A stretch of DNA of 45,116 nucleotides from Clostridia bacterium (GTDB lineage: Bacteria; Bacillota; Clostridia; Oscillospirales; CAG-272): NCBI GenBank assembly GCA_017481595.1, contig JAFUOY010000033.1, positions 1 to 45,116 on the forward strand. The letters run 5' to 3'. Positions 16 to 45,116 of the stretch are shown in pieces (position 1 is the first letter of the stretch; each line of letters begins with the position of its first letter). Under the pieces are notes generated by a model. The model made no database searches. It was not told the DNA's origin and saw only the letters and a list, made by a program, of their open reading frames with translations. The position numbers and the translations under genes are program-made.

Positions 16-250
16 TTGTATCTTATCTCTCTTTAAAGAGCTAAAATCTTCTTAACCAGAGCTTCTGTTTCTGCTCTATTACTTTTGTTTTGAGTTTGTT
101 TTCTCTAAAAGAATTTTCTTAAGAGTTCCGTCTTTGTACATTAGTTCTCTTAACTAATTTTTTCTTTTCATTGTTCAATTTTCAAGGATCTTTTACACTC
201 ATTTTCGCTGAGTGCCTTGCTATTATATCAAATACTTTTTGCTTTGTCAA
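16..250 (-). promoter_or_regulatory. rRNA operon promoter and antitermination leader
   Basis: On the minus strand a consensus promoter is visible: -35 TTGACA at 245-250, a 17-base spacer, and -10 TATAAT at 222-227. Just after the likely start is a 6-bp hairpin (196-201 with 209-214). It is followed by a boxA-like stretch, GATCCTTGAAAATTGAAC (about 174-191), which resembles the NusB/NusE-binding boxA of Firmicute rrn leaders. The remaining roughly 150 leader bases lead into the 16S start. There is no protein gene here. The promoter is seen directly; the antitermination role is inferred from family knowledge. Confidence 0.8.
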
Positions 251-339
251 GACCTTTTTTGAAATTTTTTTAATATTTTTTTATTATTTTTAGAATTTTT
301 TACTTCCTTGTAGAAAAACTAATTTAAAAGGAGGATTTT

Positions 340-1014
340 ATGGCTACGGTATTTATAAGAACAGCAATTATATACGTTATTTTTTTCCTTTCTGTAAGAA
401 TTGTAGGGAAAAGGCAAGTAGGCGAGCTCCAATTATCGGAGCTTATCACTATGCTGATGCTATCGGAATTGGCAGTAAATTCCATACAGGACATATCAAT
501 TCCGCTATCCTATTCAATAATTCCCGTAATTTTTCTTCTTTGCGCGGAGATAATAATATCTTATCTATCCATAAAATCTCAATTCCTTAAAAAAATATTT
601 TTCGGAACCCCCTGCATCATCATAAAGGACGGCAAGATAGATCAAAAGCAGCTTGCAAAGTTGAGAATCAGCGTAAACGAGCTACTGAGCGAGCTTCGCC
701 TTAAGGACTACTCTGACGTTGAGGATATTGATTACGCCATTATTGAGCAAAACGGACAGATCTCCGTTTTTCCAAAGCACAAAAAGCTGCCAACAAGCAT
801 CGAGGATCTTTACGAAAAGAGAAAGCCTTCTCCTCTTCCCTTTGCCATAATTACGGACGGAAAGGTAAACAAAAATGATCTTTTCCATATAGGCAAGGAT
901 GAAAAATGGCTGGAGGGGTATCTGAAAAAGCACAATTTAAGGCTTGATGATATATTTCTGCTGACGTCAAATCGCTGTGGGGATATAAATATAATATATA
1001 AGGAAGAAAAATGA
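340..1014 (+). CDS. DUF421 (YetF-type) membrane protein
   Basis: 224 residues. The first roughly 80 residues hold three hydrophobic segments and the family-typical stretch RIVGKRQVGELQLSELI. They are followed by the soluble part with INELLSELR-like and DYAIIEQNGQISVF motifs seen in DUF421/YetF proteins. The family is widespread in Firmicutes and includes spore-associated members; its biochemical role is not settled. The start at 340 follows a strong AAAGGAGG (326-334). The next gene overlaps its end by 4 bases and encodes a DUF4363 protein, a common pairing in Clostridia. The location next to spo0A is compatible with a sporulation role, but that is inference. Confidence 0.85.
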   Translation: MATVFIRTAIIYVIFFLSVRIVGKRQVGELQLSELITMLMLSELAVNSIQDISIPLSYSIIPVIFLLCAEIIISYLSIKSQFLKKIFFGTPCIIIKDGKIDQKQLAKLRISVNELLSELRLKDYSDVEDIDYAIIEQNGQISVFPKHKKLPTSIEDLYEKRKPSPLPFAIITDGKVNKNDLFHIGKDEKWLEGYLKKHNLRLDDIFLLTSNRCGDINIIYKEEK

Positions 1015-3666: not shown

Positions 3667-4212
3667 TTATTCTTCTATTTTTTTAATACATTTTGCATTA
3701 AGGCTGACAGGCATTTCTCTTCCTATTGAAGATACGATAACCGTAACCTCCTGCATATCATCTGAGATCTCACTGATCTTACCGCTATGTCCTGTAAGAA
3801 TACCGTCAATGATCTCAACCATATCGCCGATGCTGAATGCATCCGCCTTAACCATTTCCTCTCCGCTGATTGCGCGGGCCTCTTCATCAGAAAGGGGAAC
3901 GGGCTTTGATCCGGGTCCTACGAAGCCTGTAACACCGCTGATATAACGTACGATGTGCCATACCTCGTCATTCATAATCATCTTTACGAATACGTAACCG
4001 GGATAGATTTTTTCTTCAACTACCTTTTCTTTACCCTTAGCATCAACTGTAGTCGTAGTAACCACAGGAACCTTAACATCAAATATAAGATGAGAGAGGT
4101 TTCTGTTTTCCACTACTCTTTCAATAGTGCTCTTAACCTTGTTTTCGTGACCGGTGTAGGTATGTACCACATACCATTTCTGACCGGCAGTAAGTTCGTT
4201 GAAATCACTCAT
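3667..4212 (-). CDS. nusG: Transcription termination/antitermination factor NusG
   Basis: 181 residues. The NGN domain (about 10-115) begins KWYVVHTYTGHENKV and contains KIYPGYVFVKM and VTGFVGPGSKPVPLS. The C-terminal KOW domain contains DMVEIIDGILTGHSGKISEI. NusG binds RNA polymerase, affects pausing and termination, and couples transcription to translation. It lies 13 bases after secE in the classic order. The start has AAGAGGT upstream. Confidence 0.97.
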   Translation of the reverse strand: MSDFNELTAGQKWYVVHTYTGHENKVKSTIERVVENRNLSHLIFDVKVPVVTTTTVDAKGKEKVVEEKIYPGYVFVKMIMNDEVWHIVRYISGVTGFVGPGSKPVPLSDEEARAISGEEMVKADAFSIGDMVEIIDGILTGHSGKISEISDDMQEVTVIVSSIGREMPVSLNAKCIKKIEE

Positions 4213-14637: not shown

Positions 14638-14684
14638 AAATGTAAAAGTGGGGATTTCCTTGAAAAATCCCCACTTTTACATTT
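14638..14684 (-). terminator. Long hairpin terminator downstream of the two-component operon
   Basis: A perfect 20-bp inverted repeat (14638-14657 with 14665-14684) with a 7-base loop. The minus strand reads GTGGGGATTT...AAATCCCCACTTTT with further T-rich sequence. It probably was the terminator of the operon ending at 15037; a repeat element now lies between them. Confidence 0.7.
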
Positions 14685-14690
14685 AGTGGA

Positions 14691-15023
14691 AGCGAAATAA
14701 GTGTTGACCCAATCCCTTAAATTGTAAAACAATTTCAGGGGACCCTTGGGGAAGGCGTGAATGCGTACACGTCGCGCGCGGAACTTCCTAAAACACAGTC
14801 GTCTCGCGTGCCTCGATGCACTCGGCTTCGACACTCCTTGTTTTAGTTACTCACTCATAAAATTAGCACACTGTGCTGATTTTATTTCGTTCACTAAAAA
14901 CAGACACATAAAAAGAAGAGATTTTGCCCTAAAGCAAAATCTCAACCTTAAATATTCAATATATATCAGCAAATTATAGTTATGCCATCACACGTGTCTG
15001 TTTTGTTCTGTGCTTATTGCAGC
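14691..15023 (-). repeat. Interspersed 3'-end element, copy A
   Basis: In the sense of the upstream gene (minus strand) it begins GCTGCAATAAGCACAGA 13 bases after the stop of the 126-residue gene. It then has CAGACAC, an AT-rich stretch, a 10-bp hairpin GAGATTTTGC/GCAAAATCTC (14918-14943) followed by CTTCTTTTT, and GTGTCTGTTTTT. A second module (14784-14894), a CGACGTGTACGCATTC block (14759-14774) and an AACACTTATTTCGCT end follow. Copies B and C share the first part and the CATTC block. It is flanked by a 15-base direct repeat CCCACTTTTACATTT (14670-14684 and 15023-15037), which looks like the footprint of an insertion. The 500 bases between the genes hold no supported coding region. Confidence 0.8.
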
Positions 15024-15036
15024 CCACTTTTACATT

Positions 15037-15417
15037 TTACTTATTTAACAATTCCTCGGAAAGCCTGAGTATTTCCTCACCGTACTTTTCCTTATTTTTC
15101 TTTAAGGTAATTACGTACAGGGGATAAGCGGCTATCATAGGGCAAACCCCGATAACGCATACGACAATGCCGAATACGAAAATATCCCACACAAGCACCA
15201 TTGAAAGTCCAAGGCCGAAAATAAGCGTGCCCATAATTCCCAAAACCAATGCAAGAATTGTGGAAAAATTCTGCACGAATGAATCAAGCTTTCTTATTCT
15301 TTCAAGCTTTATCTGCTTTTCATCCTTTGCTTCGTATTGCTTTCTGATCCTTGCTATCTCCCTTCTTTCTGCCTCTGTGGGGGCGGAATAAGTATATTCA
15401 AAGCCTTTATTGTCCAT
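15037..15417 (-). CDS. Small two-helix membrane protein (paralogue of the 114-residue protein)
   Basis: 126 residues. The charged N-terminus (APTEAERREIARIRKQYEAKDEKQ) precedes two strongly hydrophobic helices (about 52-75 and 78-100) and a basic, helical tail KKNKEKYGEEILRLSEELLNK. It overlaps the end of the 304-residue membrane protein gene by 11 bases and so belongs to the two-component operon. Function unknown. Confidence 0.78.
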   Translation of the reverse strand: MDNKGFEYTYSAPTEAERREIARIRKQYEAKDEKQIKLERIRKLDSFVQNFSTILALVLGIMGTLIFGLGLSMVLVWDIFVFGIVVCVIGVCPMIAAYPLYVITLKKNKEKYGEEILRLSEELLNK

Positions 15418-16321
15418 CTTTTTTCTCCGATTTTAATTTTTTTATTGTTTTATTTCCTTTTACTATCATAAATATTGCCATAAAGTAGGCAAAAATACTT
15501 ACCGCGCTTCCCGTTAAAGTATTGGTAAGGGAGATGTCCATAGTTCCGTCTCCGAAGGAAGCAAGCATTGCGGTCTGCAGGGCGAGAATTGATACTGCGC
15601 CGTCCACAAGGTTTATATCTCTTGCCGCCTCAACCGTAAGGTCCGTCTGCTTTTGCGCCTTTACAAAATTATATATTGCCGTACCTATTTTTGTAAAGGT
15701 ATACGCTGCGTGTACGTATATAAGAAGCCCGGGATATTCGTATCCCATACCCTCAAATATCATTTGCGCAATGGCAAAGGATAGCGCCACGTTAAGCAGA
15801 AGCAGGACTATACCGCTGTTTCTGTAGGTTTTTGCTGTTTTATATTCCTTGTTTTCAATATCCTTTTTTACTTTTTTATTTCGATTTATTACTCCTGCCC
15901 GAATAAGTGTAAGACAGATATAATAGGCAGAAAGAGCGCCGTACCACACAGAGCCGTAGATTATACCGAAAACTCCGTTAAACAAGCCGTAGGCAATGCT
16001 GACCCCCAAGGAAAGAGTAACGCCCACCATAGTGCGAAAGCCAAAGCTTTCTAAAAATTCCCTTGTTACGCGCCATCTTTTAAGTAAATTTACCGTCCTT
16101 TCCTTTGCGTGGGGAATAAATATTACCACAAGATACACAGAGTATCCAAAGAAAAGCGCGGAAAAGCCAAAGCATACGTAGGATAATATTTCAAGCGTCT
16201 TATTTAGCTCGGGTATAAAAAGGAAAACCATAGAGCCGCCCACCGTTAAAACGGTAAGTAGGGTTGATAATGCGATAATTTTACCCGAGGGCTTTTTTAA
16301 TTTTTCAAAAAGATTATTCAT
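15407..16321 (-). CDS. Polytopic membrane protein of unknown function
   Basis: 304 residues with about eight membrane segments spread over the whole length, and a basic loop RNKKVKKDIENKEYKTAKT near residue 150. Its start overlaps the histidine kinase gene by 8 bases, so it is translated together with the sensor. I recognise no catalytic motif. By context it is either the output of, or an accessory to, the two-component system. CGGAG-type ribosome sites and overlaps show this is a real gene. Confidence 0.75.
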   Translation of the reverse strand: MNNLFEKLKKPSGKIIALSTLLTVLTVGGSMVFLFIPELNKTLEILSYVCFGFSALFFGYSVYLVVIFIPHAKERTVNLLKRWRVTREFLESFGFRTMVGVTLSLGVSIAYGLFNGVFGIIYGSVWYGALSAYYICLTLIRAGVINRNKKVKKDIENKEYKTAKTYRNSGIVLLLLNVALSFAIAQMIFEGMGYEYPGLLIYVHAAYTFTKIGTAIYNFVKAQKQTDLTVEAARDINLVDGAVSILALQTAMLASFGDGTMDISLTNTLTGSAVSIFAYFMAIFMIVKGNKTIKKLKSEKKDGQ

Positions 16322-17369
16322 CAGCGCCCGTTCCCTTTAAGATTATAGTAAAGGTACTTCCCTTTCCTATCTCGCTTTTAACCGAGATCTCACCGCCTAA
16401 AATATCAATTACCTTTTTTACAAGGGGGAGTCCGAGTCCGTTTCCCTCTCCCGAATGGGACGTATCGCCCTGATAGAATTTTTCAAAAATGTGCTTTCCC
16501 GTTTCTCTTGAAATGCCGCAGCCCGTATCCGTTATCTTTACCTCAACGGAGTCAAGATGCTCCTTAAGGCTTATAAAGATGCTGCCGCCCTTATCAGTAA
16601 ACTTAATGGCGTTGGAAATAAGATTATTCCACACTATTTCAAGGTATGAGCCCGAGGAATATATAACCACGTCATCAAGGTCGCATTCCAAATTAAGCTC
16701 CTTCTTTTCAATAATGCTTTCAAAGCTTAGTACCATGTCGGAAAGCATAGCAGTCAGGTCCACTCTTTCATATTCGGGAGCTATATCCCGGTTTTCAAGC
16801 TTATTAAGCTTCAAAATATTGGTTATAAGATCCGTCAATCGCTTTGACGCGTTATTTATGGTGGCTACGTACTTTTGTCTTGTTTCGCTGTCAAGCTCCT
16901 CATTTTGCAGCATTGAAGAATAGCTTTGTATAACGGCAAGAGGAGTTTTCAGCTCGTGGGAAACGTTTGAAATAAAATCCGTTCTCAGCATTGCGCTTTT
17001 TTCAAGCGCCTCCGCCATTTTATTAAGGTCCTCCATTATAGCGTCGTAGCCGTTGTAATGATTGTACTTTACAGGCAGATCAAGCCTTGCGGAAAAGTCT
17101 CCTGCGGTTATCTTTTCCGTTGCGTCAAGTATTTTCTTTACAGGCTTATCTACCATTATTTTACGTCTGAAAAAGTCAATAAGGGTGCATAAGGTGGAAA
17201 GAATAAATATAAGCACCAAAACCAAAACGGCAATAAGACCGTTATTCGATGTCCTGTCCTCTATATAGTCAAAGACCAATATTGCCACCTGCATAATAAA
17301 GGCAATAAGGAAGAAGAAAAACAGCATACCGCCCACAGATATTGTGCTTCTGCGTCTTTTGTTCTTCAT
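16314..17369 (-). CDS. Two-component sensor histidine kinase
   Basis: 351 residues. Two membrane helices (about 11-34 and 44-66) enclose only a short outer loop, so the signal is probably sensed in or near the membrane. A HAMP domain (about 70-125) leads to the HisKA domain with predicted phospho-histidine H138 in FISNVSHELKTPL. The ATPase domain has the N box NLISNAIKF, G1 DTGCGI and G2 GNGLGLPLV. It shares a 4-base ATGA overlap with its response regulator gene. The very short sensor loop and adjacent membrane proteins resemble envelope or antimicrobial-peptide stress systems; that is inference. Confidence 0.93.
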   Translation of the reverse strand: MKNKRRRSTISVGGMLFFFFLIAFIMQVAILVFDYIEDRTSNNGLIAVLVLVLIFILSTLCTLIDFFRRKIMVDKPVKKILDATEKITAGDFSARLDLPVKYNHYNGYDAIMEDLNKMAEALEKSAMLRTDFISNVSHELKTPLAVIQSYSSMLQNEELDSETRQKYVATINNASKRLTDLITNILKLNKLENRDIAPEYERVDLTAMLSDMVLSFESIIEKKELNLECDLDDVVIYSSGSYLEIVWNNLISNAIKFTDKGGSIFISLKEHLDSVEVKITDTGCGISRETGKHIFEKFYQGDTSHSGEGNGLGLPLVKKVIDILGGEISVKSEIGKGSTFTIILKGTGADE

Positions 17370-18037
17370 TTCAGCACCGCCTTATATCCAAGACCGTGGA
17401 CGGTAAGTATCTCAAAGCCGTCGCATACGGAGGTCTTTTCTCTTATCTTAGCCATATATACGTCAACAGTACGGGAGGTTGCCGAGGAGTCAAAATCCCA
17501 GAATTCCTCCATTAAGGCAGACCTTGTAAATGTCTTTTTGGGATAGGATAGAAGCTTGAAAAGAATATCAAATTCACGCACGGTAAGGGATATTTCTTCT
17601 CCGTCCGCTACTGCTGTACGCTCCTCCGTATTCATTACGAAATTGCCTATCCTTATCTCCTTTTGGGTTTCTACCCTTGCGCGCCTTAATACCGCGTTTA
17701 TCTTAAGAAGCAAAACGTCCATATCAAAGGGCTTGGTAACGTAATCGTCAATACCGATGGAATAGCCAAACATCTTTGAGGGCTTATCGTCCTTGGCGGT
17801 CATAAAGATTATAGGTACGTCCTTATCGAAGCTGCGTATCTCCTTGGCAAGCTCAAAGCCGTCCATTTTCGGCATCATTATATCCGTAAGGATCATATCG
17901 AATCTTACTCTTTCGGTTGCCTCAAGGCCCTCCTCACCGTCAAAGCAAGAGGTTATATCGTAGCCCATATTTCTTAAAGATGACGTCACGAATCTGTTCA
18001 GATCCTTATCATCCTCACAAACGAGTATTTTTATCAT
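17366..18037 (-). CDS. OmpR-type response regulator
   Basis: 223 residues. The receiver domain has acidic residues E8/D9/D10, phospho-acceptor D52 in MILTDIMMPKMDG, T (FMTAK) and K (VTKPFD). The C-terminal winged helix contains FDILFKLLSYPKKTFTRSALMEEFW and SRTVDVYMAKIREK. It is the first gene of the four-gene operon regulator-kinase-membrane protein-small membrane protein. AGGAGG precedes the ATG. Confidence 0.95.
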   Translation of the reverse strand: MIKILVCEDDKDLNRFVTSSLRNMGYDITSCFDGEEGLEATERVRFDMILTDIMMPKMDGFELAKEIRSFDKDVPIIFMTAKDDKPSKMFGYSIGIDDYVTKPFDMDVLLLKINAVLRRARVETQKEIRIGNFVMNTEERTAVADGEEISLTVREFDILFKLLSYPKKTFTRSALMEEFWDFDSSATSRTVDVYMAKIREKTSVCDGFEILTVHGLGYKAVLK

Positions 18038-18073
18038 ATTTACCTCCTGTAAGAGCTTGATCTCATTACTTCT

Positions 18074-18102
18074 ATTGTATCATATATTTTTCATATTTGC
18101 AA
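18074..18102 (-). promoter_or_regulatory. Promoter of the two-component operon
   Basis: On the minus strand TTGCAA (18097-18102), 17-base spacer, TACAAT (18074-18079), 36 bases before the regulator start. It diverges from the htrA gene; the AT-rich gap between them holds no gene. Confidence 0.65.
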
Positions 18103-18296
18103 AAGGTTTATGTTTTGTTAAGAAATTGTAAATTACCCTTTATTTTTACCGTTTCACATAAAAATCATTTTTAAAAAATGCTTTTTCAAATTATTTTTTT
18201 GGTATCATCATAAAAATTTCACAAAGATATTGTAGAATAAAATCGTGGAATAGAGGAATACTCTCCTTTGATAATAAGACGAAAAGAGGTCTTTAT

Positions 18297-19508
18297 ATGT
18301 CTGATTACATTTTCAATAATTATCCAAACGATAATAAATTTTCAAATAATCAAAAGCCGAACAAGAGCTCGGGAAAAACGGTATTTATCGCATTGTTTTG
18401 CGCGGCGTCCATACTCGTGTCGGGATTTTTGGGAATAATGATAGGCGTTGCCTTCGCTCCCGATACAAGTAAGGATACAAACGGCGGTACTGTAAACAGC
18501 TACGTTTACGAATCTCCCTCCATTCAGAATACGGGAAGCGTTTTTGAACCCGAGCAGCTGCAAAACGGAGGCTACCTTACAGTTGCGCAGACTGCAGCCT
18601 ACTCCGCTCCCACGGTTGTGGAGATAAGAACGGAATATATGGCGCAATCCTATTTTCAATACGTTACGGGCGGCGCAGGTAGCGGCGTTATCTCGGGTGA
18701 ATACAAGGTAAACGGCGCAAAGGCGGGATATTATATCCTTACCAACGCCCACGTTATCCAAAAGGAAAACGGAAATATAGTAGAGGCAAGCGGTATAACC
18801 GTCACTACCTCCGACGGCAAGGACTATACCGTAAAAAATATAGTTGGCTATGACACGATGGGTGACGTTGCGGTTCTGATGATAGAAACGGGGGACACAT
18901 TAAAATGCGCCTCCTTTGGTGACTCCGATACACTTATCGTAGGTCAGGAGGTGGTTGCCATAGGTAACCCCTTAGGTGAGCTTGGCGGTACTGTAACAAA
19001 CGGTATAGTAAGCGCCCTTGACCGTGAGATAAACGTTGACGGCAATAAAATGAATCTTTTACAGACAAACGCGGCGATAAATCCCGGTAACTCGGGCGGC
19101 GGACTTTTCAACCTCCGCGGTGAGCTTGTGGGACTTGTAAACGCAAAATCCTCTGGCAGCGGTATTGAGGGACTTGGCTTTGCCATTCCTTCAAACGACG
19201 TAAAAATGATGCTTACCGATATTCTTACCTACGGTTACGTCCGCGGCAGACCCTTTGTCGGTATTAACGTATACCTTGACTCCTATTCAAGGGTAAGAGT
19301 TCACTCCTTAGCCCCCGATCACAACGACGGTGTGCTTCAGCAGCACGACATTATCCTTTCCGCTGACGGAATAAATATAAAATCCTCTGCCGATCTTTTA
19401 TCCGTGGTGCAAAGCCACGAGGTAGGCGAAACCATAGACCTTAAGATAGTAAGAAACGGCAAGGAATCCACGGTTAAAATAACCGTTTTTGAAAAGAAGC
19501 CTTCTTGA
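18297..19508 (+). CDS. HtrA/DegP-type membrane-anchored serine protease
   Basis: 403 residues. A short cytosolic N-terminus, one membrane helix (about 27-52) and an extracytoplasmic trypsin-like domain. The catalytic triad is predicted as H152 (ILTNAHVI), D190 (TMGDVAVL) and S266 (NPGNSGGGLFN). The C-terminus (about 310-400) is a PDZ domain with GIEGLGFAIP before it and an exposed VGETIDLKIVRNGKE strand. Such proteases degrade misfolded envelope proteins. An AGAGG site precedes the ATG at 18297. The neighbouring two-component systems on both sides suggest envelope-stress control, as inference. Confidence 0.94.
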   Translation: MSDYIFNNYPNDNKFSNNQKPNKSSGKTVFIALFCAASILVSGFLGIMIGVAFAPDTSKDTNGGTVNSYVYESPSIQNTGSVFEPEQLQNGGYLTVAQTAAYSAPTVVEIRTEYMAQSYFQYVTGGAGSGVISGEYKVNGAKAGYYILTNAHVIQKENGNIVEASGITVTTSDGKDYTVKNIVGYDTMGDVAVLMIETGDTLKCASFGDSDTLIVGQEVVAIGNPLGELGGTVTNGIVSALDREINVDGNKMNLLQTNAAINPGNSGGGLFNLRGELVGLVNAKSSGSGIEGLGFAIPSNDVKMMLTDILTYGYVRGRPFVGINVYLDSYSRVRVHSLAPDHNDGVLQQHDIILSADGINIKSSADLLSVVQSHEVGETIDLKIVRNGKESTVKITVFEKKPS

Positions 19509-19522
19509 TCTCCTTTCCATAT

Positions 19523-19579
19523 CCGCAAATTGTTGCGGACGCAGAATGCAACACAAAATTTTAGTGTTGCATTTTGTGC
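19523..19579 (+). terminator. Double hairpin after htrA
   Basis: A 7-bp hairpin TCCGCAA/TTGCGGA (19523-19540) is followed directly by a long hairpin with core AATGCAACAC/GTGTTGCATT (19546-19555 with 19564-19573), extended by wobble pairs. The T-run inside the right arm is short, so it may act as a terminator or as an RNA stabiliser. The next promoter starts 7 bases on. Confidence 0.55.
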
Positions 19580-19585
19580 ATATGG

Positions 19586-19615
19586 TTGACAATCAGTATG
19601 AATTTATGATATTAT
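19586..19615 (+). promoter_or_regulatory. Promoter of the second two-component operon
   Basis: TTGACA (19586-19591), 18-base spacer, TATTAT (19610-19615), 20 bases before the regulator start. The very short leader (about 15 bases) leaves just enough room for the GAGGTGA ribosome site. Confidence 0.65.
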
Positions 19616-19635
19616 TTTTTTACGAGGTGATGACA

Positions 19636-20334
19636 ATGTACAGAATTTTAGTAGTTGATGACGAAATAATGATTAGAAGCCTTATACGAAAATACGGAGA
19701 GTTCGAGGGACATACCGTAATTGAGGCGGTTGACGGAATGGACGCCATTTCAAAATTCAAGTCCGAGGGCGCTGATATTATAATTATGGATATTATGATG
19801 CCCGAGCTTGACGGCTTCTCTGCCTGCCGTGAGATAAGAAAGATATCTGACGTGCCCATAATTATGCTTTCCGCAAGGGGCGAGGAATACGATAAGATAA
19901 ACGGATTCGAGATAGGTATTGACGATTACGTTGTAAAGCCCTTTTCACCAAAGGAGCTTATGCTTCGTATCGATGCCATAATGAAGAGAGCAAAATCAGG
20001 CGGAAGAAACGAAAGCAAAAACGAGATAATTACTCTTGCAGGGGGCGGTATAACCGTTGATTTTACCGCAAGAATCGTTTACAGGGACGGAGAAAGAATA
20101 GAAATGTCACCCAAGGAGTACGATCTTTTCTTCTATATGATAAAGAATAAGAATATTGCCCTTACGAGAGATAAGCTTCTTTCCGACGTTTGGGGATACG
20201 ATTTCTTTGGGGATGACAGAACTCTTGACACACATATAAAAATACTGAGAAAAAGCCTTGGCGCATACAACGACCTTATAGTTACCATAAGAGGCGTTGG
20301 CTACCGCTTAGAGGACAAGTATGAAGCAAAATAA
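19636..20334 (+). CDS. OmpR-type response regulator (second system)
   Basis: 232 residues from the ATG at 19636, which has GAGGTGA upstream; the longer in-frame reading would begin inside the htrA end and cross the promoter. The receiver has D8/D9, phospho-acceptor D52 in IIIMDIMMPELDG, S (MLSARG) and K (VVKPFSPKE). The winged-helix output contains YDLFFYMIKNKNIALTRDKLL, VWGYDFFGDDRTLDTHIK and the typical end VTIRGVGYRLE. It overlaps its kinase gene by 14 bases. Confidence 0.95.
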   Translation: MYRILVVDDEIMIRSLIRKYGEFEGHTVIEAVDGMDAISKFKSEGADIIIMDIMMPELDGFSACREIRKISDVPIIMLSARGEEYDKINGFEIGIDDYVVKPFSPKELMLRIDAIMKRAKSGGRNESKNEIITLAGGGITVDFTARIVYRDGERIEMSPKEYDLFFYMIKNKNIALTRDKLLSDVWGYDFFGDDRTLDTHIKILRKSLGAYNDLIVTIRGVGYRLEDKYEAK

Positions 20335-21799
20335 AAAATTCGTGCCCAGCATAAGGACAAGAATATTCATATCGATGCTTATTCTTACCTTTGTAATGCT
20401 GTTTATTATCTGGCTGACGCAGACGGTATTTCTTGCGGGTATGTACAGATACATAAAGACCAACGATATGGAAAATATCGCGAGCGTGGTGGGCAGTAAT
20501 CTCGACAAGGAAAACTTTGACCTTCTTCTTGATGACATCTCTGCCAAGCACGAGACCTGTCTTACGGTAATAAACGTATCCAAGGATAACGAAATAGTTT
20601 ACAACAGCCACGCATTGAATAACTGTATCGTCCATAAAATGACAACGGACGATATAATCCGCCATTGGTATATGGAGGCGGTAAAAAGCGATAATTCATT
20701 TGTAAAGATCATATCAGCGGATGAATTCCGTAATTCATATTTCGATTACGGCTCCTTTGACAACGTTTTGCCCGATGATGGTGTATCAAACTGTATAATC
20801 TCCGCAAACGTGACTAAAAATGCGGAGGGAGATACCTATTTGTTCGTGCTTAATTCGTCTATTGAGCCTGTTTCCGCAACTATAAGGACCTTAAGAATCC
20901 AGCTTATCTCCATTTCCCTCTTGATGGTGGCGGTGGCGGGAATTATGTCCTTCATCCTTTCAAAAAGAATTGCATCCCCCATTGCAAATATGAGCAAGGA
21001 CGTAAAAAGAATGGCAAAGGGCGACCCCGTTCGCTTTGTTGAGGCGGGCACGGAGGAAACCGTGGAGCTTGCAAGGACCCTTAATTATATGTCCAACGAG
21101 CTTGAAAAGGTTGACAAAATGCAAAAGGAGCTTATTGCAAACATATCCCACGATCTACGCACACCCCTTACAATGATTTCGGGATACAGTGAGGTAATGA
21201 GGGATATTCCCGGCGAAAATACGCCCGAGAATATGCAGATCATCATTGATGAGACCGCCCGTCTTTCCTCCCTTGTAAACGATCTATTGGATCTGTCCAA
21301 ATTCCAGACGGGAGTGCAGGTGCTTAACTGTCGGGTTATGAATCTTACAGAGGCGATACGCAAAACTGTAGAACGGTACGAGCATCTTATATCCCACAAC
21401 GGCTACGATATAAGCTTTGAGTACGATAGGGACGTATACATCTACGCCGACGAAATAAGAATTTTGCAGGTGGTATACAATCTTATCAACAACGCCATAA
21501 ATTACACGGGTGACGACAAGAGGGTTACGGTACGTCAAAAGGTAAGTGACGGATACGTAAAGATACTTATTATTGACACAGGGTGCGGTATTTCCGAGGA
21601 TGAGCTTCATCTTATATGGGACAGATACTATAAGGTGGATAAGGTACATTCAAGAGCCAAGGTAGGCACGGGAATCGGTCTTTCCATCGTTAAAAACATT
21701 CTTACCATTCACGATTGCCGCTTCGGTGTTTCAAGTGAGATCGATAAGGGTAGTACATTCTGGTTTGAATTTAAAATAATTGATGGAAATGTTAAATAA
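20321..21799 (+). CDS. Two-component sensor histidine kinase (second system)
   Basis: 492 residues. Membrane helix 1 (about 14-38) and helix 2 (about 192-214) enclose a roughly 150-residue extracellular sensor domain. HAMP follows (SKRIASPIANMSKDVKRMA). HisKA contains phospho-histidine H277 in LIANISHDLRTPLTMISGYSEV. The ATPase domain has NLINNAINYTG, DTGCGIS and GTGIGLSIVKNIL. The architecture resembles the VanS/ResE-like class. The stop codon TAA lies inside the conserved AATAAG start of repeat copy B, so the last codons may have been changed by an insertion. Confidence 0.93.
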   Translation: MKQNKKFVPSIRTRIFISMLILTFVMLFIIWLTQTVFLAGMYRYIKTNDMENIASVVGSNLDKENFDLLLDDISAKHETCLTVINVSKDNEIVYNSHALNNCIVHKMTTDDIIRHWYMEAVKSDNSFVKIISADEFRNSYFDYGSFDNVLPDDGVSNCIISANVTKNAEGDTYLFVLNSSIEPVSATIRTLRIQLISISLLMVAVAGIMSFILSKRIASPIANMSKDVKRMAKGDPVRFVEAGTEETVELARTLNYMSNELEKVDKMQKELIANISHDLRTPLTMISGYSEVMRDIPGENTPENMQIIIDETARLSSLVNDLLDLSKFQTGVQVLNCRVMNLTEAIRKTVERYEHLISHNGYDISFEYDRDVYIYADEIRILQVVYNLINNAINYTGDDKRVTVRQKVSDGYVKILIIDTGCGISEDELHLIWDRYYKVDKVHSRAKVGTGIGLSIVKNILTIHDCRFGVSSEIDKGSTFWFEFKIIDGNVK

Positions 21800-22014
21800 G
21801 AACAGATCAAAACAGACACACCGTATAAGTTAACGGTAATTTATCGATATATATCATAACTATCTAAAGTTGAGATTTTGTCATATGACAAAATCTCTTC
21901 TTTTTATGTGTCTGTTTTTAAGAACGACTGCTTCTCCACGGGGTCCCCGTAAAATCCATAAGGATTTTTGGGGAATGGGTCAGCCGTACAAAGTACAGCG
22001 ACGAGTACGCATTC
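21795..22014 (+). repeat. Interspersed 3'-end element, copy B
   Basis: Begins AATAAGAACAGA, of which TAA is the stop codon of the upstream kinase. It continues CAAAACAGACAC, an AT-rich stretch, a perfect 12-bp hairpin (21872-21883 with 21886-21897) followed by TTCTTTTT, and GTGTCTGTTTTT, then CGACTGCTTCTCC and a closing CGACGAGTACGCATTC block (21999-22014). The hairpin plus T-rich tail is the only terminator-like structure in the correct sense for the kinase operon. Same order of blocks as copies A and C. Confidence 0.8.
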
Positions 22015-22052
22015 GTCCTTTCTGTCCATATTTTCCTATTTCCAAAATATTA

Positions 22053-22078
22053 AAGGCTGTCTTATCAAAGACAGCCTT
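22053..22078 (-). terminator. Terminator of the S1-domain gene
   Basis: AAGGCTGTCTT (22053-22063) pairs with AAGACAGCCTT (22068-22078) around ATCA, with a TTT-rich continuation on the minus strand. It lies 7 bases after the stop of the S1-domain gene. Confidence 0.8.
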
Positions 22079-22084
22079 GTTTTA

Positions 22085-23017
22085 TTAGAATACAGTTTCA
22101 ACGAGCTTTTTACAGGTGGTGGGAGAGTAGCGCCAGCGGGAGATACTATCCACCTCCTTAGGGTCTACGAAATAGCCGCAGGGCTTTATCTCGGGGGTAA
22201 AATCGTAGGAGTCGATAATAACAAGCTTTACCTTCATTTTATCGGGAATTATGCTCTTTATATACACGGCGCAGAATTGACCCTCACACACGCCCTCCCG
22301 ATATTCCGCAAGTCCCGCAAGATTTGGGGCAAGCTCCACAAAAATGCCGTAATCCTCTACGCTTCTGACTATGCCAGATACCGTCTGCCCCGGGGAAAAC
22401 ATAGATGCATTTTCCTCCCATGTGCCAAAAAGCTCCTTTGTGGAAACGTAAATTCTGTTAGTTTCCTTATCTATGCTCTTTACCACAACGTATATCTCGT
22501 CACGCAAGGAAAATCTTTCCGACGGGTTGGCAATTCTTGACACGGACACACAGTCTACCGTAAGCAGGGCGACTGCGCCGCATCCTACGTCAACGAAAGC
22601 TCCAAAGGGCTCAAAATGGGTAATTCGGGCGGGAATTATTTTACCCGGAGTAAGGGATGCAATATAGCTTTCTATACACTCCCTCTGGGCCTCCTTTCTT
22701 GAAAGAATAGCCGTTTGCTTACCGTTTACGGTCTTAAGCTCCATTACCTTAAAGCACACGGGCTTACCTACCCTTGTTATAATGGCAATATCCTTTGCTC
22801 TTTCTCCGTATACGCACTCATCCCTGTATATAATTCCGTCCACTCCCCCAAGGTCAATATGAAGTGTATATGTGTCGCTATCACACAAATTAACCACTCC
22901 CTCAAGGATTTTTCCCTCACGTCGGGCATTTTCAAGCCCCTGATATGAGGAAATGTATTCTCTGTTTTCTGCAGTTCCGAGGATCGCGCCCTCGGGCAGA
23001 TATGTATTATGTTTCAT
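22085..23017 (-). CDS. S1-domain RNA-binding protein (RpsA-like)
   Basis: 310 residues. Three S1-type beta-barrels can be outlined: an N-terminal one (about 37-105, GKILEGVVNLCDSDTYTLHIDLGG), a central one (about 124-190, GKIIPARITHFEPFGAFVDVGCGAVALL) and a third (about 212-270, GQTVSGIVRSVEDYGIFVELAPNLAGL). The middle and last have the FGAFVD/GIFVEL signature. Low-GC Gram-positives often have such S1-like proteins in place of the six-domain E. coli S1. It likely binds mRNA or ribosomes. It begins 15 bases after the P-type ATPase stop, with GGAGG, so the two are probably cotranscribed. A tail of about 40 residues without S1 features ends the protein. Confidence 0.85.
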   Translation of the reverse strand: MKHNTYLPEGAILGTAENREYISSYQGLENARREGKILEGVVNLCDSDTYTLHIDLGGVDGIIYRDECVYGERAKDIAIITRVGKPVCFKVMELKTVNGKQTAILSRKEAQRECIESYIASLTPGKIIPARITHFEPFGAFVDVGCGAVALLTVDCVSVSRIANPSERFSLRDEIYVVVKSIDKETNRIYVSTKELFGTWEENASMFSPGQTVSGIVRSVEDYGIFVELAPNLAGLAEYREGVCEGQFCAVYIKSIIPDKMKVKLVIIDSYDFTPEIKPCGYFVDPKEVDSISRWRYSPTTCKKLVETVF

Positions 23018-23032
23018 TTTATTTTCCTCCGT

Positions 23033-25657
23033 CTACATATATGATATTTTGCCGAGAGCCTTTATATGCTCTTGTTTTCGTAATTTTTTTGTGACAAGCT
23101 TTCTTATAAGATCAAACACCACCGTCGTTGAGGATATAAGAACGACGCTTACAAGGTCCTCAAAAAGAAGGGGTACAGAACGAAACGCTTTACCGCCGAA
23201 ATAAATAAACCCGATCTGCACACAGAAAATAAGAAGCATAATAGAAATAAAGGATCTGTTTTTTGATATATTTGCAAAAATATTTATTCTGTCCGTTCTC
23301 GATATAAAGCAGACAAAAACGCTCATAAAACAGAACATAGCAAAAAATCCGCTTAATATATACGCCTCGTCGCATTTGTGCAAGATCATACACAGGGTGT
23401 CACTTTTTAAAAACCAGATGCACAAAAACAGGATAAAGATACTGTTAAAGGCTATCTTATGAACGGTGTTTTTATCAAGGATATTTTCATCCCTTCTCTT
23501 CGGCTTGTTTTTCATATATTCCAGTAAGGGAGGCTCGGCGGCAAAGGCTAAAGCGCCAAGGGTATCCATAATTATGTTTACCCACAGCATTTGAGACACG
23601 GTAACGGGATTTTCAACTCCGATAAAGGGTCCTACTAAGGAAATACCCATAGCGCCGAAATTCATAGTAAGCTGAAAAACTATAAATCTGCGTATGGACT
23701 GAAATATAGTTCTGCCGTATAGTATTGCTTTACAGATGGAATTAAAATTATTGTCCGCAATAATTATATCTCCCGCCTCCTTGGCTACCTCCGTGCCCGA
23801 GCCCATAGCAAAGCCTACGTCAGCAAGCTTTAAGGAGGATGCGTCGTTTATGCCGTCCCCCGTCATTCCCACCACGTAGCCCATATTCTGCGCTATTTTT
23901 ACAAGTCGGCTTTTATCCGTGGGCAGCGCCCTTGCCACAACGGCAAGCTTTGGCATAATTTCAGCCACGTCTTTGTCGGAAAGCAGATTCAACTCATCCC
24001 CCGTGATTACAATATCCCTCTTTGAAAGGGTGGAAATAATGCCGCATTCCCTTGCGATCTCCTTTGCGGTTTCCTTATTATCTCCCGTTATCATAACCAC
24101 GCCGATTCCCGCCTCGGTAACGGTTTTTACGGCCTTTGGTACTGCTCCTCTTACCTTATCCTTAAGCGCCACGAGACACAAAAAGGTAAGACCTGAAAGC
24201 TCCGTATCGTTTCCGTCCTTTATTGCCATTGCAACCACACGGTACGCCATTGACGTAAGGGAGGAAAGGCTAGAGATAAGCTGTTCCCTTGAGGTAATGG
24301 GCAGAGTATTACCGTTTACGTCCATAATTTTTGTTGAGGCGGCAATAATTTTTTCGGGCGCGCCCTTAAATAATGTTACGGTTTTTTCATCTTTGTCAAT
24401 TACGGTGGCGCAGTATTTTTTTGCGCTGTCAAAGGGCAACTTATCAATTACGGTTGCCCCCTCTCTTTTTTTGCCCACGTATTTAAGAATTGCCCTGTCC
24501 GTCTGATTTGAGGATACGGTCTTACCGCCTACGCTTTCCATCTCACCGCAGTAGGTAGCGCAAAGGGTAATACAGCTTTTGTATTTTCCATCCTCAATAT
24601 GCGAAAAGTTATCCTCGCTTTTGCCGTTTGAAAGGCGCATTTCCTTTACCTTTAATACGCCCTCCGTAAGAGTGCCTGTTTTATCCGTAAACAAAAGGTC
24701 AATATTGCCCGAGGTTTCTATTCCAACGGGCTTACGGACTATTACGTTGTCCTTAAGCATTTTTTTCATATTTGAGGAAAGCACCACGGTTATCATCATA
24801 GGCAGTCCCTCGGGTACGGCTACCACAACTACGGAAATAGCAAGGGTAAGGGCGGAAAGCAGCTTGCTAAAAAGGAATTTTACATCCTTTATTTTTAGCA
24901 GAGCCTCGTTTAAATTCATACCCGTGTCCACAAAAAACGCATTGAACAAATATGCAAGACCGATAAGCACGGCGCAAACGTAGCCTATTTTACTTATTGA
25001 TTTTGCAAGGACGGTAAGGCGCTCCTTAAGCGGACTTGCCCTCGTTTCCGTCGTAAGCTCCCTTGCCGCCTTACCGTAATAAGTATTTTCTCCAACGGAG
25101 GTAACACGCGCAAATGCACTTCCCCCGCGGACGAAGGAGCCCTTATAAATTTTCTCTCCCTCTGTGTTTTTTATTATCTCCGCGCTTTCCCCCGTCAGCA
25201 TAGATTCATCCACGCTTATTTTTCCCGATATTATTTCTCCGTCCGCCTGTATTCTTACGCCCGAATCAAGAAAAAGAATATCCTTTACCACTATTTCCTC
25301 GGGGGAAATTTCCGTTTTCTCTCCATTTCTTATTACAGCGCATTTTACACCCTCGCCCTGCTCTCTCAGCTTTTCAAAGGCGTTTTCGCTGCTGTATTCC
25401 GAATAGGTGGAAACAAGGGTGGATACCAATACGGAAAAGGCGATCCCGCCCGACTCAAACCAATTTATATTCGGTATCATAAAAGCTATATTTATAAAAA
25501 GAGCCACAAGAAGCACTCTTATTATAGGATCGGAAAAGTTAGACAGATAGCACTTAAAAAAGGTCTTTTTCTTTACTTCCCTCAATACGTTTGCCCCATA
25601 TTTTTCTCTGCTCAGTGCTACCTCCCTGTCGCTGAGCCCCTTTTCAATATCTTGCAT
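23033..25657 (-). CDS. P-type calcium-transporting ATPase
   Basis: 874 residues, full length for the P2 group. Present are the actuator motif TGES (about 155-158), the PEGLP segment (282-286) in the fourth membrane helix, phosphorylation site D325KTGTL, the nucleotide-domain KGAPEKI, and hinge motifs MTGDNKETAKEIA and GMTGDGINDASSLKLADVGFAMG. C-terminal membrane helices (about 660-850) complete the pump. The order and motifs match bacterial Ca2+ exporters related to PMCA/SERCA pumps, but Mn2+ or other cations are possible. The weak AAAGGA start site is acceptable. The gene is followed closely by the S1-domain gene. Confidence 0.92.
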   Translation of the reverse strand: MQDIEKGLSDREVALSREKYGANVLREVKKKTFFKCYLSNFSDPIIRVLLVALFINIAFMIPNINWFESGGIAFSVLVSTLVSTYSEYSSENAFEKLREQGEGVKCAVIRNGEKTEISPEEIVVKDILFLDSGVRIQADGEIISGKISVDESMLTGESAEIIKNTEGEKIYKGSFVRGGSAFARVTSVGENTYYGKAARELTTETRASPLKERLTVLAKSISKIGYVCAVLIGLAYLFNAFFVDTGMNLNEALLKIKDVKFLFSKLLSALTLAISVVVVAVPEGLPMMITVVLSSNMKKMLKDNVIVRKPVGIETSGNIDLLFTDKTGTLTEGVLKVKEMRLSNGKSEDNFSHIEDGKYKSCITLCATYCGEMESVGGKTVSSNQTDRAILKYVGKKREGATVIDKLPFDSAKKYCATVIDKDEKTVTLFKGAPEKIIAASTKIMDVNGNTLPITSREQLISSLSSLTSMAYRVVAMAIKDGNDTELSGLTFLCLVALKDKVRGAVPKAVKTVTEAGIGVVMITGDNKETAKEIARECGIISTLSKRDIVITGDELNLLSDKDVAEIMPKLAVVARALPTDKSRLVKIAQNMGYVVGMTGDGINDASSLKLADVGFAMGSGTEVAKEAGDIIIADNNFNSICKAILYGRTIFQSIRRFIVFQLTMNFGAMGISLVGPFIGVENPVTVSQMLWVNIIMDTLGALAFAAEPPLLEYMKNKPKRRDENILDKNTVHKIAFNSIFILFLCIWFLKSDTLCMILHKCDEAYILSGFFAMFCFMSVFVCFISRTDRINIFANISKNRSFISIMLLIFCVQIGFIYFGGKAFRSVPLLFEDLVSVVLISSTTVVFDLIRKLVTKKLRKQEHIKALGKISYM

Positions 25658-25751
25658 ATACTTTGTCCTTTCATTTTTATATTACATACTATTCACTAAG
25701 AGGTTTTAATATGTATTTCAAAAATGGAAGAAACAAAACAATTAAGGGGTT

Positions 25752-25955
25752 AGCGAAATGAGTGCAGAAGTGGTGAATGCGTACACGTCGGCGTACTGGC
25801 GTACGACAGAGTAGCAGTCGCCACTAAAAAACAGACACAAAAAAAGAAGAGATTTTGCCATAAGACAAAATCTCAACCTTAAAAATATAATATTTATAAG
25901 CGAATTAACATTATGCTATAAACCGTGTCTGTTTTTGGTCTGTGCTTATTGCAGC
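25752..25955 (-). repeat. Interspersed 3'-end element, copy C
   Basis: In the sense of pnp it begins GCTGCAATAAGCACAGA 10 bases after the pnp stop. It continues CAAAAACAGACAC, an AT-rich stretch, a 9-bp hairpin GAGATTTTG/CAAAATCTC (25849-25874) followed by TTCTTTTT, GTGTCTGTTTTTT, GCGACTGCTACTC and a CGACGTGTACGCATTC block (25775-25790). It closes with ATTTCGCTAACCCC, which mirrors the GGGGTTGCTGCAAT at the other end, so the ends are imperfect inverted repeats. The 308-base gap between the ATPase and pnp genes holds only this element and the ATPase upstream region. Confidence 0.8.
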
Positions 25956-25965
25956 AACCCCGCCA

Positions 25966-43145: not shown

Positions 43146-45116
43146 ATGAAAAAGCGCTTTTTACCCCTATTTTTGGCAGCTTGTCTCGCAGTATCGAGTC
43201 TGCAGACAATCGCATTTGCAGATTCGGCAGATGTGAATGGCACACCCTTGACTCTTTCAGAAAATGACGTGGATTGGGCAGGTACTAACGGTACTCCTGT
43301 CACTGTCGGAAGCGACTGCGAGTGCATCAGCTTTGAGCAGGCTGAGGGCTATAAGTATCAGTTCAGCTACAAGGCAGGAAGCACTCTTGCGGCAGGCGAC
43401 TATAAGCTTTCCGTTACCGCTCGTTTCGATCCCGCTGCATATGCAGAAAACGATTACGGAAGCTACATCGACGGCACAAAGGCATCGAACACAAGAGGCT
43501 GTCTTGTTGATAACGGTCTTGTTGTCGGCGTAAATGCAGGTACACACGGCACCACTAACAACATTCTTACTGCAGGTGCAGACACAAGTGTTCTCACTGT
43601 TACTGCATTCAACAAGGATGGTGCGGCATCAGATAACTCCTATGCACTCGGAATCGATGACGAATGGCATACATTTGAAATTGATTTTACACTTAAAGCA
43701 GATCAGTCGCTTGAGCATTTCGGTGCAATCGTATTCTTCTATAACATCAGAAGCGACTTTACAATTCCCGTTCAGGTTAAGGATCTCTCGCTCGTAAACA
43801 GCACAACAGAAGAAACCTACTCGCAGGGAATGGATGCAAAGTACTGGACCTACAGAAAGGGCAACGGTTACGATTATGATGTAACTATCGCCGAAGAAAC
43901 TCCGTATTTTACAACTCTTGCAACCGGTGCGGATACGATTATGTATGTTGGTGACGATACAGCTGAATATGCGGCAGGTATCTATACACTGAATACAAAT
44001 GTACGTGGAGCAGCAGGCACTGTGATCACTGCAGGTGTGAACGGCGTGACTGCTTCGTACACGCTCACGACTGATACATGGGAAGCTGCTACGTTTGAAC
44101 TCGACACAACCTCTGCTTTCACAATGAGCGATATCACAATCGGCTTTGGGGCTGACATCGATTTCACTGAGATTGAGCTTGTTAACACTTACATATACCC
44201 TGTATGTAAGGACTTCGCAGGTACAAACGGTGAGGCGATCACAGCAATTGGTGATGACAAGTGTGTAAGCTTTGAGCAGGCTGAGGGCTATAAGTATCAG
44301 TTCAGCTACAAGGCAGGAAGCACTCTTGCGGCAGGCGACTATAAGCTCACAGTTACCGCTCGCTTTGATCCCGATGCTTACGCAGAAAATGATTACGGAA
44401 GCTACATCGATGGCACAAAGGCATCGAATACAAGAGGCTGTCTTGTTGATAACGGTCTTGTTGTCGGTGTAAATGCAGGCACACACGGCACCACTAACAA
44501 TATTCTTACCGCAAGCGCAGACACAAGTGTTCTCACCGTTACTGCATTCAACAAAGACGGTGTAGCATCAGATAACTCCTATGCGCTCGGAATCGACGAC
44601 GAATGGCATACCTTTGAAATCGACTTTACTCTTAAAGCAGATCAATCACTTGAGCATTACGGTGCAATCGTGTTCTTCTATAACATCAGAAGCGACTTTA
44701 CAATTCCGGTTCAGGTCAAGGATCTTTCGCTTGTAAACAGCACAACAGAAGAAATCTATTCGCAGGGAATGGACGCGAAGTACTGGACCTACAGAAAGGG
44801 CAACGGTTACGATTATGATGTAACTATCGCTGAAGAAATTCCGTACTTCACAACAACAAACAGCGGCGCAGAAGCTATTACCTATATCGGCGATGATACA
44901 ACCGAATACGGCGCAGGCGGTTACACAGTAAATGCAACTGTACGCGGCGAAATCGGTACTGTTATCACTGCAGGTGTGAATGGCGTTACTGCTTCGTACA
45001 CTATCGAAACCGACACTTGGGAAACTGCGGTGTTCACTTTTGACACCAAGAAAGCTTTCACAATGAGTGATATCACAATCGGCTTTAACGCTGACATTGA
45101 TTTCACTGAAATTGAG
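43146..45116 (+). CDS. Large secreted tandem-repeat protein with carbohydrate-binding-like repeats (partial, runs off the window)
   Basis: 657 residues visible, open at the right edge. The start MKKRFLPLFLAACLAVSSLQ is a signal peptide with likely cleavage after AFA. From about residue 45 a 313-residue unit begins and is repeated: unit 1 is 43278-44216, unit 2 is 44217 onward with 900 of 939 bases inside the window. Each unit has a jelly-roll-like part (FEIDFTLKADQSLEHFG, FYNIRSDFTIPVQVKDLSLV) that looks like a carbohydrate-binding module, then a DAKYWTYRKGNGYDYDVTIAEE stretch and a second beta part ending SDITIGF..DIDFTEIELVN. The copies are nearly identical in DNA. It follows the glycosidase-like gene by 24 bases with AAGGAGG. 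The catalytic part or anchor, if any, lies outside. Confidence 0.85.
   Translation, partial: MKKRFLPLFLAACLAVSSLQTIAFADSADVNGTPLTLSENDVDWAGTNGTPVTVGSDCECISFEQAEGYKYQFSYKAGSTLAAGDYKLSVTARFDPAAYAENDYGSYIDGTKASNTRGCLVDNGLVVGVNAGTHGTTNNILTAGADTSVLTVTAFNKDGAASDNSYALGIDDEWHTFEIDFTLKADQSLEHFGAIVFFYNIRSDFTIPVQVKDLSLVNSTTEETYSQGMDAKYWTYRKGNGYDYDVTIAEETPYFTTLATGADTIMYVGDDTAEYAAGIYTLNTNVRGAAGTVITAGVNGVTASYTLTTDTWEAATFELDTTSAFTMSDITIGFGADIDFTEIELVNTYIYPVCKDFAGTNGEAITAIGDDKCVSFEQAEGYKYQFSYKAGSTLAAGDYKLTVTARFDPDAYAENDYGSYIDGTKASNTRGCLVDNGLVVGVNAGTHGTTNNILTASADTSVLTVTAFNKDGVASDNSYALGIDDEWHTFEIDFTLKADQSLEHYGAIVFFYNIRSDFTIPVQVKDLSLVNSTTEEIYSQGMDAKYWTYRKGNGYDYDVTIAEEIPYFTTTNSGAEAITYIGDDTTEYGAGGYTVNATVRGEIGTVITAGVNGVTASYTIETDTWETAVFTFDTKKAFTMSDITIGFNADIDFTEIE
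43278..45116 (+). repeat. 939-bp tandem repeat within the secreted protein gene
   Basis: The unit at 43278-44216 is followed by a second unit from 44217 offset by exactly 939 bases (313 codons). Examples are TTTGAGCAGGCTGAGGGCTA at both positions and the GATTTCACTGA[AG]ATTGAG ends at 44177 and 45116. Most differences are silent third-base changes, though the stretch just after TIAEE differs more. More units probably follow beyond the edge. Confidence 0.95.

Follow-up and report, generated by a model that had tools for sequence, protein, structure and literature searches.

A structured interspersed element of gut Clostridia, probably a miniature transposable element aimed at transcription terminators

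The 45,116-nt stretch of DNA analysed here (hereafter 'the window': positions 1 to 45,116 of contig JAFUOY010000033.1, Clostridia bacterium, assembly GCA_017481595.1) harbors three copies of a structured interspersed element, situated downstream of pnp, of a histidine kinase gene and of an open reading frame (ORF) for a 126-aa protein. We consider that this element is probably (at roughly 0.65, as judged from sequence) a non-autonomous structured miniature transposable element (of the miniature inverted-repeat transposable element, or MITE, kind) that is moved by IS1182-type transposases and aimed at terminator stem-loops, a description that suits it better than that of a 3'-UTR RNA family. 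According to this reading, the transposase of an IS1182-type insertion sequence (IS) would move the element in trans; in the window's genus the insertion would take place at the foot of a terminator or in its place, and the sense orientation would be kept because the inner hairpin of the element and its T-run supply or reinforce termination (i.e. sense copies would be retained because this hairpin can stand in for a lost terminator).

Architecture of the element

The ordered blocks by which the copies had originally been recognized were found in the stated order in all three of them (by eye), and a covariance model built from 28 copies of the genus (the pnp copy itself included) matched the pnp copy with 233 bits, copy 3 with 142 bits and copy 2 with 83 bits, while nothing else in the window exceeded 21 bits. 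The copies are thus real, and longer than first reported: an outer stem closes the element on both sides (GGGGTTGC...GCTAACCCC in the pnp copy) and therefore moves the bounds outwards, to approximately 25746-25961, 14685-15028 and 21791-22017 (lengths ~216-344 nt). The elements and their parts are as follows.

25746..25961, minus strand: element copy 1, downstream of pnp, outer stem to outer stem (covariance model 25739-25965)
25849..25874, minus strand: inner AU-rich hairpin of copy 1 with TTCTTTTTTT tail (terminator scan; helix 3 of alignment A1)
25769..25825, minus strand: P4 arm of copy 1 with conserved core (alignment A1; core pattern in other Clostridia)
14685..15028, minus strand: element copy 2, after the 126-aa ORF, with extra blocks (sequence; covariance model 14741-15031)
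14918..14943, minus strand: inner hairpin of copy 2 with TTCTTTTTAT tail (terminator scan)
15023..15037, minus strand: left 15-nt direct repeat AAATGTAAAAGTGGG flanking copy 2 (by eye)
14670..14684, minus strand: right 15-nt direct repeat AAATGTAAAAGTGGG, identical with the 5' arm of the hairpin beside copy 2 (by eye)
14639..14683, minus strand: terminator-like hairpin beyond copy 2, 20 pairs (terminator scan)
21791..22017, plus strand: element copy 3, after the histidine kinase gene, with a hairpin insert in P4, ends approximate (covariance model 21781-22050)
21872..21897, plus strand: inner hairpin of copy 3 with TTCTTTTTAT tail (terminator scan)
21937..21984, plus strand: GGGGTCCCC...GGGGAATGGGTCA hairpin insert in the P4 arm of copy 3 (by eye)
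22053..22078, both strands: terminator-like hairpin between two convergent genes beyond copy 3 (terminator scan)

As regards the fold, the element forms a three-way junction, in which two arms emerge from the outer stem, one bearing the AU-rich hairpin and its T-run and the other (P4) the conserved core; the hairpin of the earlier proposal is to be seen as one arm of the junction. From 44 single-piece copies, 2 were dropped as contig-edge oddities and 14 for being more than 90% alike, and in the 28 that were aligned RNAalifold recovered the inner hairpin and the P4 arm as well as the stem that closes the element, to which the outer stem of P3 was added by eye. Two-sided changes were observed at 28 of the 59 pairs in these non-redundant copies, amounting to 142 cells, as compared to a mean of 42.6 cells in shuffled controls (0 of 500 reaching 142) and at most 17 in slid versions. 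The covarying pairs were spread over all parts of the fold (outer stem 8, P3 4, inner hairpin 8, P4 8), and the inner hairpin (helix 3 of alignment A1) showed two-sided change at 8 of its 11 pairs. When 99 distinct copies from 88 loci were fitted to the structure, 52 of the 59 pairs covaried (655 cells; shuffled 160, slid at most 94). These tests count sequences rather than independent events, and they bear out the suggestion that pairing is kept by compensatory changes.

The copies adjoin stop codons, as had been noted, with the pnp copy starting 4 nt and copy 2 ~8 nt past the stop; copy 3 departs from the proposed distance of 0-13 bases in that its AATAAG (21795-21800) includes the stop codon of the histidine kinase gene (21797-21799). 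The identities of pnp and of the histidine kinase were confirmed by Pfam, in which the 126-aa protein before copy 2 had no match. Additional blocks are present in copies 2 and 3, either within the P4 arm or next to it, and an insert like that of copy 3 was seen in 7 of the 23 copies that we recognize in the genome (c00-c22, see below), namely c02, c06, c17 and c19-c22 (by eye). The extra blocks of copy 2 (14701-14751 and 14800-14896) appear modular, the first kind recurring in 6 and the second in 4 of the 23 copies at the same places (by eye). A short frame on the other strand of copy 1 (starting MSAEVVNAYTS) was considered as a gene and discarded, as it is interrupted by stops inside the P4 core of the G025 copies (by eye).

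Amplification and mobility

Within the genome to which the window belongs (a 1.87-Mb partial assembly, estimated to be 62% complete), the pnp copy gave 30 blastn matches, which we read as 23 copies (one of them truncated). The initial annotation had proposed a covariance-model search of this genome and its relatives (performed here with E up to 1e-4), and it returned 23 matches in the former, matches in 22 of 23 genomes of the genus (1 to 37 each) and matches in 2 of 15 genomes of other families; as only 59 candidates were scored per genome, the counts may be low. No blastn match with the pnp copy was present in phages and plasmids. Rfam yielded 0 matches at the gathering threshold in the whole window, and none over an element at 18 further loci that were inspected down to an E of 1 (at locus L207, mir-4872 and BTnc005 overlap the element far below threshold, with E 0.12 and 0.71).

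We compared the sites occupied by the element with the corresponding sites in relatives. Among 24 loci with a pnp end, a strong match (233 bits) was found at the window's own only. The sister genome G011, whose pnp is 97% identical and followed by the same gene, has an ordinary terminator in the element's place, with a weak partial match (25 bits) at this locus. Three loci (L307, L309 and L312) have less than 230 nt past pnp, and a full element would therefore not be visible there; in one of them (L307, genome G001) a possibly related sequence lies at the contig end (by eye). A diverged match of 51 bits was obtained in another family, on the other strand near the pnp gene of genome G043 (L316:3635-3886, minus strand).

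The gene ends of 19 further copies were used to search the relatives G011 and G018, and for 15 of them comparable loci existed (orthology being taken here as a gene-end match of ~78-93% identity). Thirty loci were returned, some of which overlap or are paralogues, and 29 were scanned (L359, a 47-nt match, was left out). At 14 of the 15 matched gene ends the loci seen of G011 and G018 were without the element, and the sole filled locus of the 29 was L356 in G011, at copy c21 (168 bits); L341 gave a weak partial match (24 bits) and contains a hairpin like the one at 22053-22078, without the element. These vacant sites, together with the 23 copies of the genome, sustain the earlier view of an amplified and mobile element, and most copies therefore look young. 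By eye and in comparison with the relatives, c04 and c05 retain the stem of the native terminator; no similar hairpin is left at c00, c06, c14 (where the T-run is kept), c16 and c19. The possibility that the outer stem is the host terminator's own stem was rejected for c04 and c05, whose sister sites are without it (by eye); it might be so at c01, c14 and c17.

Other members of the family were met with in relatives. Locus L058 holds, beside a diverged copy, two matches to Gut-1 RNA (440-510, plus strand, and 554-646, minus strand; 34.6 and 28.4 bits as compared to a gathering score of 50), and a second copy (192-415, plus strand) whose left half resembles the end of an IS3-type transposase gene (by eye). 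Two diverged members on contig 9 of G019 (L074:1267-1508 and 3719-3928, minus strand) each lie directly after a stop codon in an apparent pyrimidine operon (by eye).

The P4 core and its insertion targets in other Clostridia

The P4 core pattern was found in at least 116 stretches of named genomes (among the matches listed, all Clostridia), including the isolate Ructibacterium gallinarum, and one viral contig holds it as well; of 394 genomes drawn evenly from the order, 18 possessed it. The elements that carry it elsewhere have different ends and a similar plan (by eye). Direct repeats of at least 13 nt flanked 46 of 93 scored loci on both sides (27 contig-edge loci being left out), and repeats of at least 20 nt flanked 33, as compared to 0 of 93 when flanks from different loci were combined. 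With the R. gallinarum copies and a looser core, repeats were present at 59 of 104 loci, after exclusion of 32 edge cases; a stem of 5 or more pairs is contained in 41 of these repeats and missing from the remaining 18, and the duplicated repeat is often a whole stem-loop. Several of these loci come from one genome and are therefore not independent. With regard to the neighboring genes, the elements in other Clostridia are without orientation bias (16 sense, 13 antisense, 44 convergent and 5 divergent; 42 edge cases left out), and the side of the T-run is likewise unbiased (26 to 21, with 12 ties). No recurrent gene accompanies the core (117 loci, 475 ORFs, the largest cluster occurring in 5 loci), and an autonomous version inside L077, L083 and L084 was rejected, as no frame longer than 108 aa overlaps the element there.

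A possible link to IS1182-type insertion sequences

The left end of the R. gallinarum elements, CAGACTGTCGAAAAAG, was found 32 times in that genome at no more than one mismatch (vs 1 for the reversed pattern), and the exact P4 pattern lies within 700 nt at 18 of 30 such loci, a near variant of it being present at several further ones (by eye). Four loci that are cut by contig ends (L245, L247, L258 and L260) run into IS sequence instead of P4. The left end is exact at L245 and L247 and has one mismatch at the three other IS-joined loci, of which L268 enters an open frame with the IS1182 model NF033551 as its best NCBIfam match (243 bits, below the cut-off of 270, with the contig ending inside the frame). 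A stem-loop stands directly left of all five of these IS ends (by eye). In the window's genus, G011 carries one IS1182-family element (NF033551, 340.8 bits, over the cut-off) with a frame of 513 aa, which also begins just past a stop codon. Over 18 positions, its left end matches that of G025-type copies at 16 and that of the pnp copy at 15. The element (216-344 nt) is far shorter than this frame and has no transposase of its own. The putative IS1182 link in the genus rests on one IS copy in another species.

Several observations weigh against the reading of a miniature element moved by IS1182-type transposases. The end shared in R. gallinarum is known from the left side only, the right end of the IS lying beyond the contig ends. 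Of the 19 genomes of the genus that were searched, only G011 has a match to PF01609 or PF05598, and the window's own partial genome gave none. In the genus, no clean duplication of the target was detected, and flanking repeats were seen in c01 and c17 only (by eye). In the sister genome G027, stand-alone terminator hairpins show the sequence of the IS end, GGGGCTGTTGCATTA, which weakens the link in the genus, since the likeness could come from the target. Both ends of the G011 IS were read and no P4 is visible in it, so that a plain deletion derivative fails to explain P4. Moreover, the mismatches in 137 P4 stems are asymmetric (5 G-U vs 113 A-C on the gene strand), which suggests a strand-specific function that a simple MITE would not need.

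The hairpins in G027 (GGGGCTGTTGCATTAGCGACAGCCCC at L275, L280, L282 and L284) have no element in the adjoining 95 nt, and a 15-mer of theirs is the IS1182 end in G011. These stand-alone hairpins also made uncertain a candidate right end of the element, the GGGGCTGTCGC hairpin beside the G025 copies.

A further reading, which we hold to be unlikely, is that the element belongs to a class of mobile structured elements in which the P4 core is common across Clostridia, the ends differ and folding takes place on the strand that faces the host gene's own; P4 would then be a working part (RNA or single-stranded DNA) that directs or licenses insertion into terminators, and not the relic of an IS.

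Orientation, termination and strand

The gene on the left is co-directional with the element at 20 of the 23 copies of the genome and at 30 of 32 single-piece copies in relatives (as determined by a simple open-frame caller), and the gap to the stop codon is at most 30 nt in 26 of 30 cases in the relatives; the sense placement right after stops, first remarked on for three copies, is thereby extended to the genus. Where both neighbors have the same direction, sense prevails 12 to 2 in the genome and 8 to 1 in the relatives (combined p 0.0005), and the contrast in orientation between the genus and the other Clostridia is suggestive (Fisher p 0.017).

Each window copy possesses a sense hairpin of 11 pairs (4 G-C) with a T-rich tail, TTCTTTTT (terminator scan). 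At the pnp site, the inner hairpin (25849-25874) is the only terminator-like site listed on the strand before the next gene; at the two other sites another terminator-like hairpin follows just past the element (14639-14683 and 22053-22078), and self-termination would therefore be needed only at some sites, pnp included. We argue that the inner hairpin may replace a lost terminator where the element sits in sense after a stop codon.

The same observations could be accounted for by a 3'-UTR terminator or stability RNA adopted by the host, its copies being kept as terminators or 3'-end protectors and its mobility belonging to the past only. The strong sense bias directly past stop codons, the presence in each window copy of an inner hairpin with a T-rich tail, the strong covariation and the disappearance at pnp of the ordinary terminator present in the sister genome all agree with such a role, which we nonetheless consider rather unlikely, given that close relatives are without the element at 14 of the 15 matched gene ends, that a second hairpin follows at two of the three window sites, and that P4-core elements elsewhere are without orientation bias. 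Furthermore, part of the covarying outer stem and of P4 is located past the presumed site of termination, and as the outer stem spans the element, a transcript ending at the hairpin could form neither.

The asymmetry of the P4 mismatches (an A-C on one strand being a G-U on the other) exceeds that of shuffled partners (20 G-U to 48 A-C; Fisher p 2.4e-6), and hints that the opposite strand may be the folded one in P4. It would be expected if a structured nucleic acid specific to the strand opposite to the host gene, whether RNA or single-stranded DNA, served the element's own spread, with the terminator as a mere landing site, and the occurrence of the same P4 core in elements with different ends is in agreement with this. 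The contrast is weaker when distinct events are counted (5:38 vs 16:34, p 0.025), and two positions supply much of the A-C excess. The inner hairpin is symmetric (27:34 and 11:11), and the outer arms of the elements in other Clostridia are near their controls (11:45 vs 19:42, and 24:28 vs 23:29); in the model-fitted alignment of the genus, the outer arms and the hairpin lean the opposite way (63:41, 40:20 and 25:7; P4 17:42). We regard this explanation as improbable. The greater stability of the opposite strand upon folding of the whole element (27 of 28 copies in the genus, 90 of 92 others) was set aside as evidence on the strand, because all copies share the core and the comparison is not independent.

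A spread of the copies by recombination between terminators or by gene conversion, without transposition, is very improbable: the copies in the genus are without clean target duplications and the terminator hairpin beside the G025 copies is itself repeated, also without the element, but it is hard to obtain in this way stem-loop duplications as varied in sequence as those observed, or insertion sites at terminators that are unrelated to each other in sequence.

Apart from the element, the end of the window (43321-45116) contains a tandem duplication, with two direct repeats 939 nt apart (300 nt at 92% and 253 nt at 74% identity).

Comparison with known systems

A literature search found no description of the element, a text search for the letters of the core returned only unrelated subjects, and the excerpted text of PMC2229807 contains nothing on terminators. 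Of the 250 candidates in the table of mobile and repeat motifs in PMC11109978, as far as excerpted, only the MRSC-65-2 motif was compared with the present element: it is described there as multi-copy, structured, taken to be mobile and sometimes near a transposase gene, and its conserved repeat is UYCCGG, whereas the present element has the P4 core instead.

Among the repeats of Streptococcus pneumoniae, BOX elements are small, interspersed, modular and structured, with ends like those of a resident IS, and repeats of this kind are over-represented between convergent genes (excerpts of PMC3049150). The extra blocks of copy 2 recall the boxB modules; BOX belongs to another host group, is likened here by description, and in the excerpts of that paper is not described as having a sense-after-stop bias or the P4 core. 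The pneumococcal SPRITE, a repeat resembling a Rho-independent terminator and the most enriched between convergent genes (PMC3049150, in excerpt; named in PMC10969869, likewise in excerpt), shares with our element the look of a terminator (a stem plus a U-rich tract); according to the same excerpts it consists of an 18-bp duplex with a U-rich tract, whereas the hairpin of the present element is one arm of a three-way junction.

The closest parallel in targeting is offered by IS1272 and TnSha1 (IS1182 family, Staphylococcus), which, according to excerpts of PMC4923244 and PMC5678879, insert into stem-loops without sequence specificity, several of these being transcription terminators. Upon insertion, part of the target hairpin is deleted or replaced, and in the proposed model one pathway duplicates the whole stem-loop. 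The likeness lies in this stem-loop targeting, and the R. gallinarum elements have the left end of an IS1182-type IS; IS1272 is autonomous, whereas the present element is without a gene, and no conserved three-way-junction core is mentioned for IS1272 or TnSha1 in those excerpts.

The element may thus add to the known systems a family of structured miniature elements of gut Clostridia that targets terminators (with up to 37 model matches per genome), and it lends itself to a natural comparison: elements with a duplicated stem-loop are without orientation bias, and those of the window's genus, where the terminator is possibly displaced, are nearly always in sense, as if the element must bring its own terminator. 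R. gallinarum DSM 107454, an isolate that carries such elements, is suited to testing this. From otherwise similar known miniature transposons, the element would appear to be set apart by its unusual shared core.

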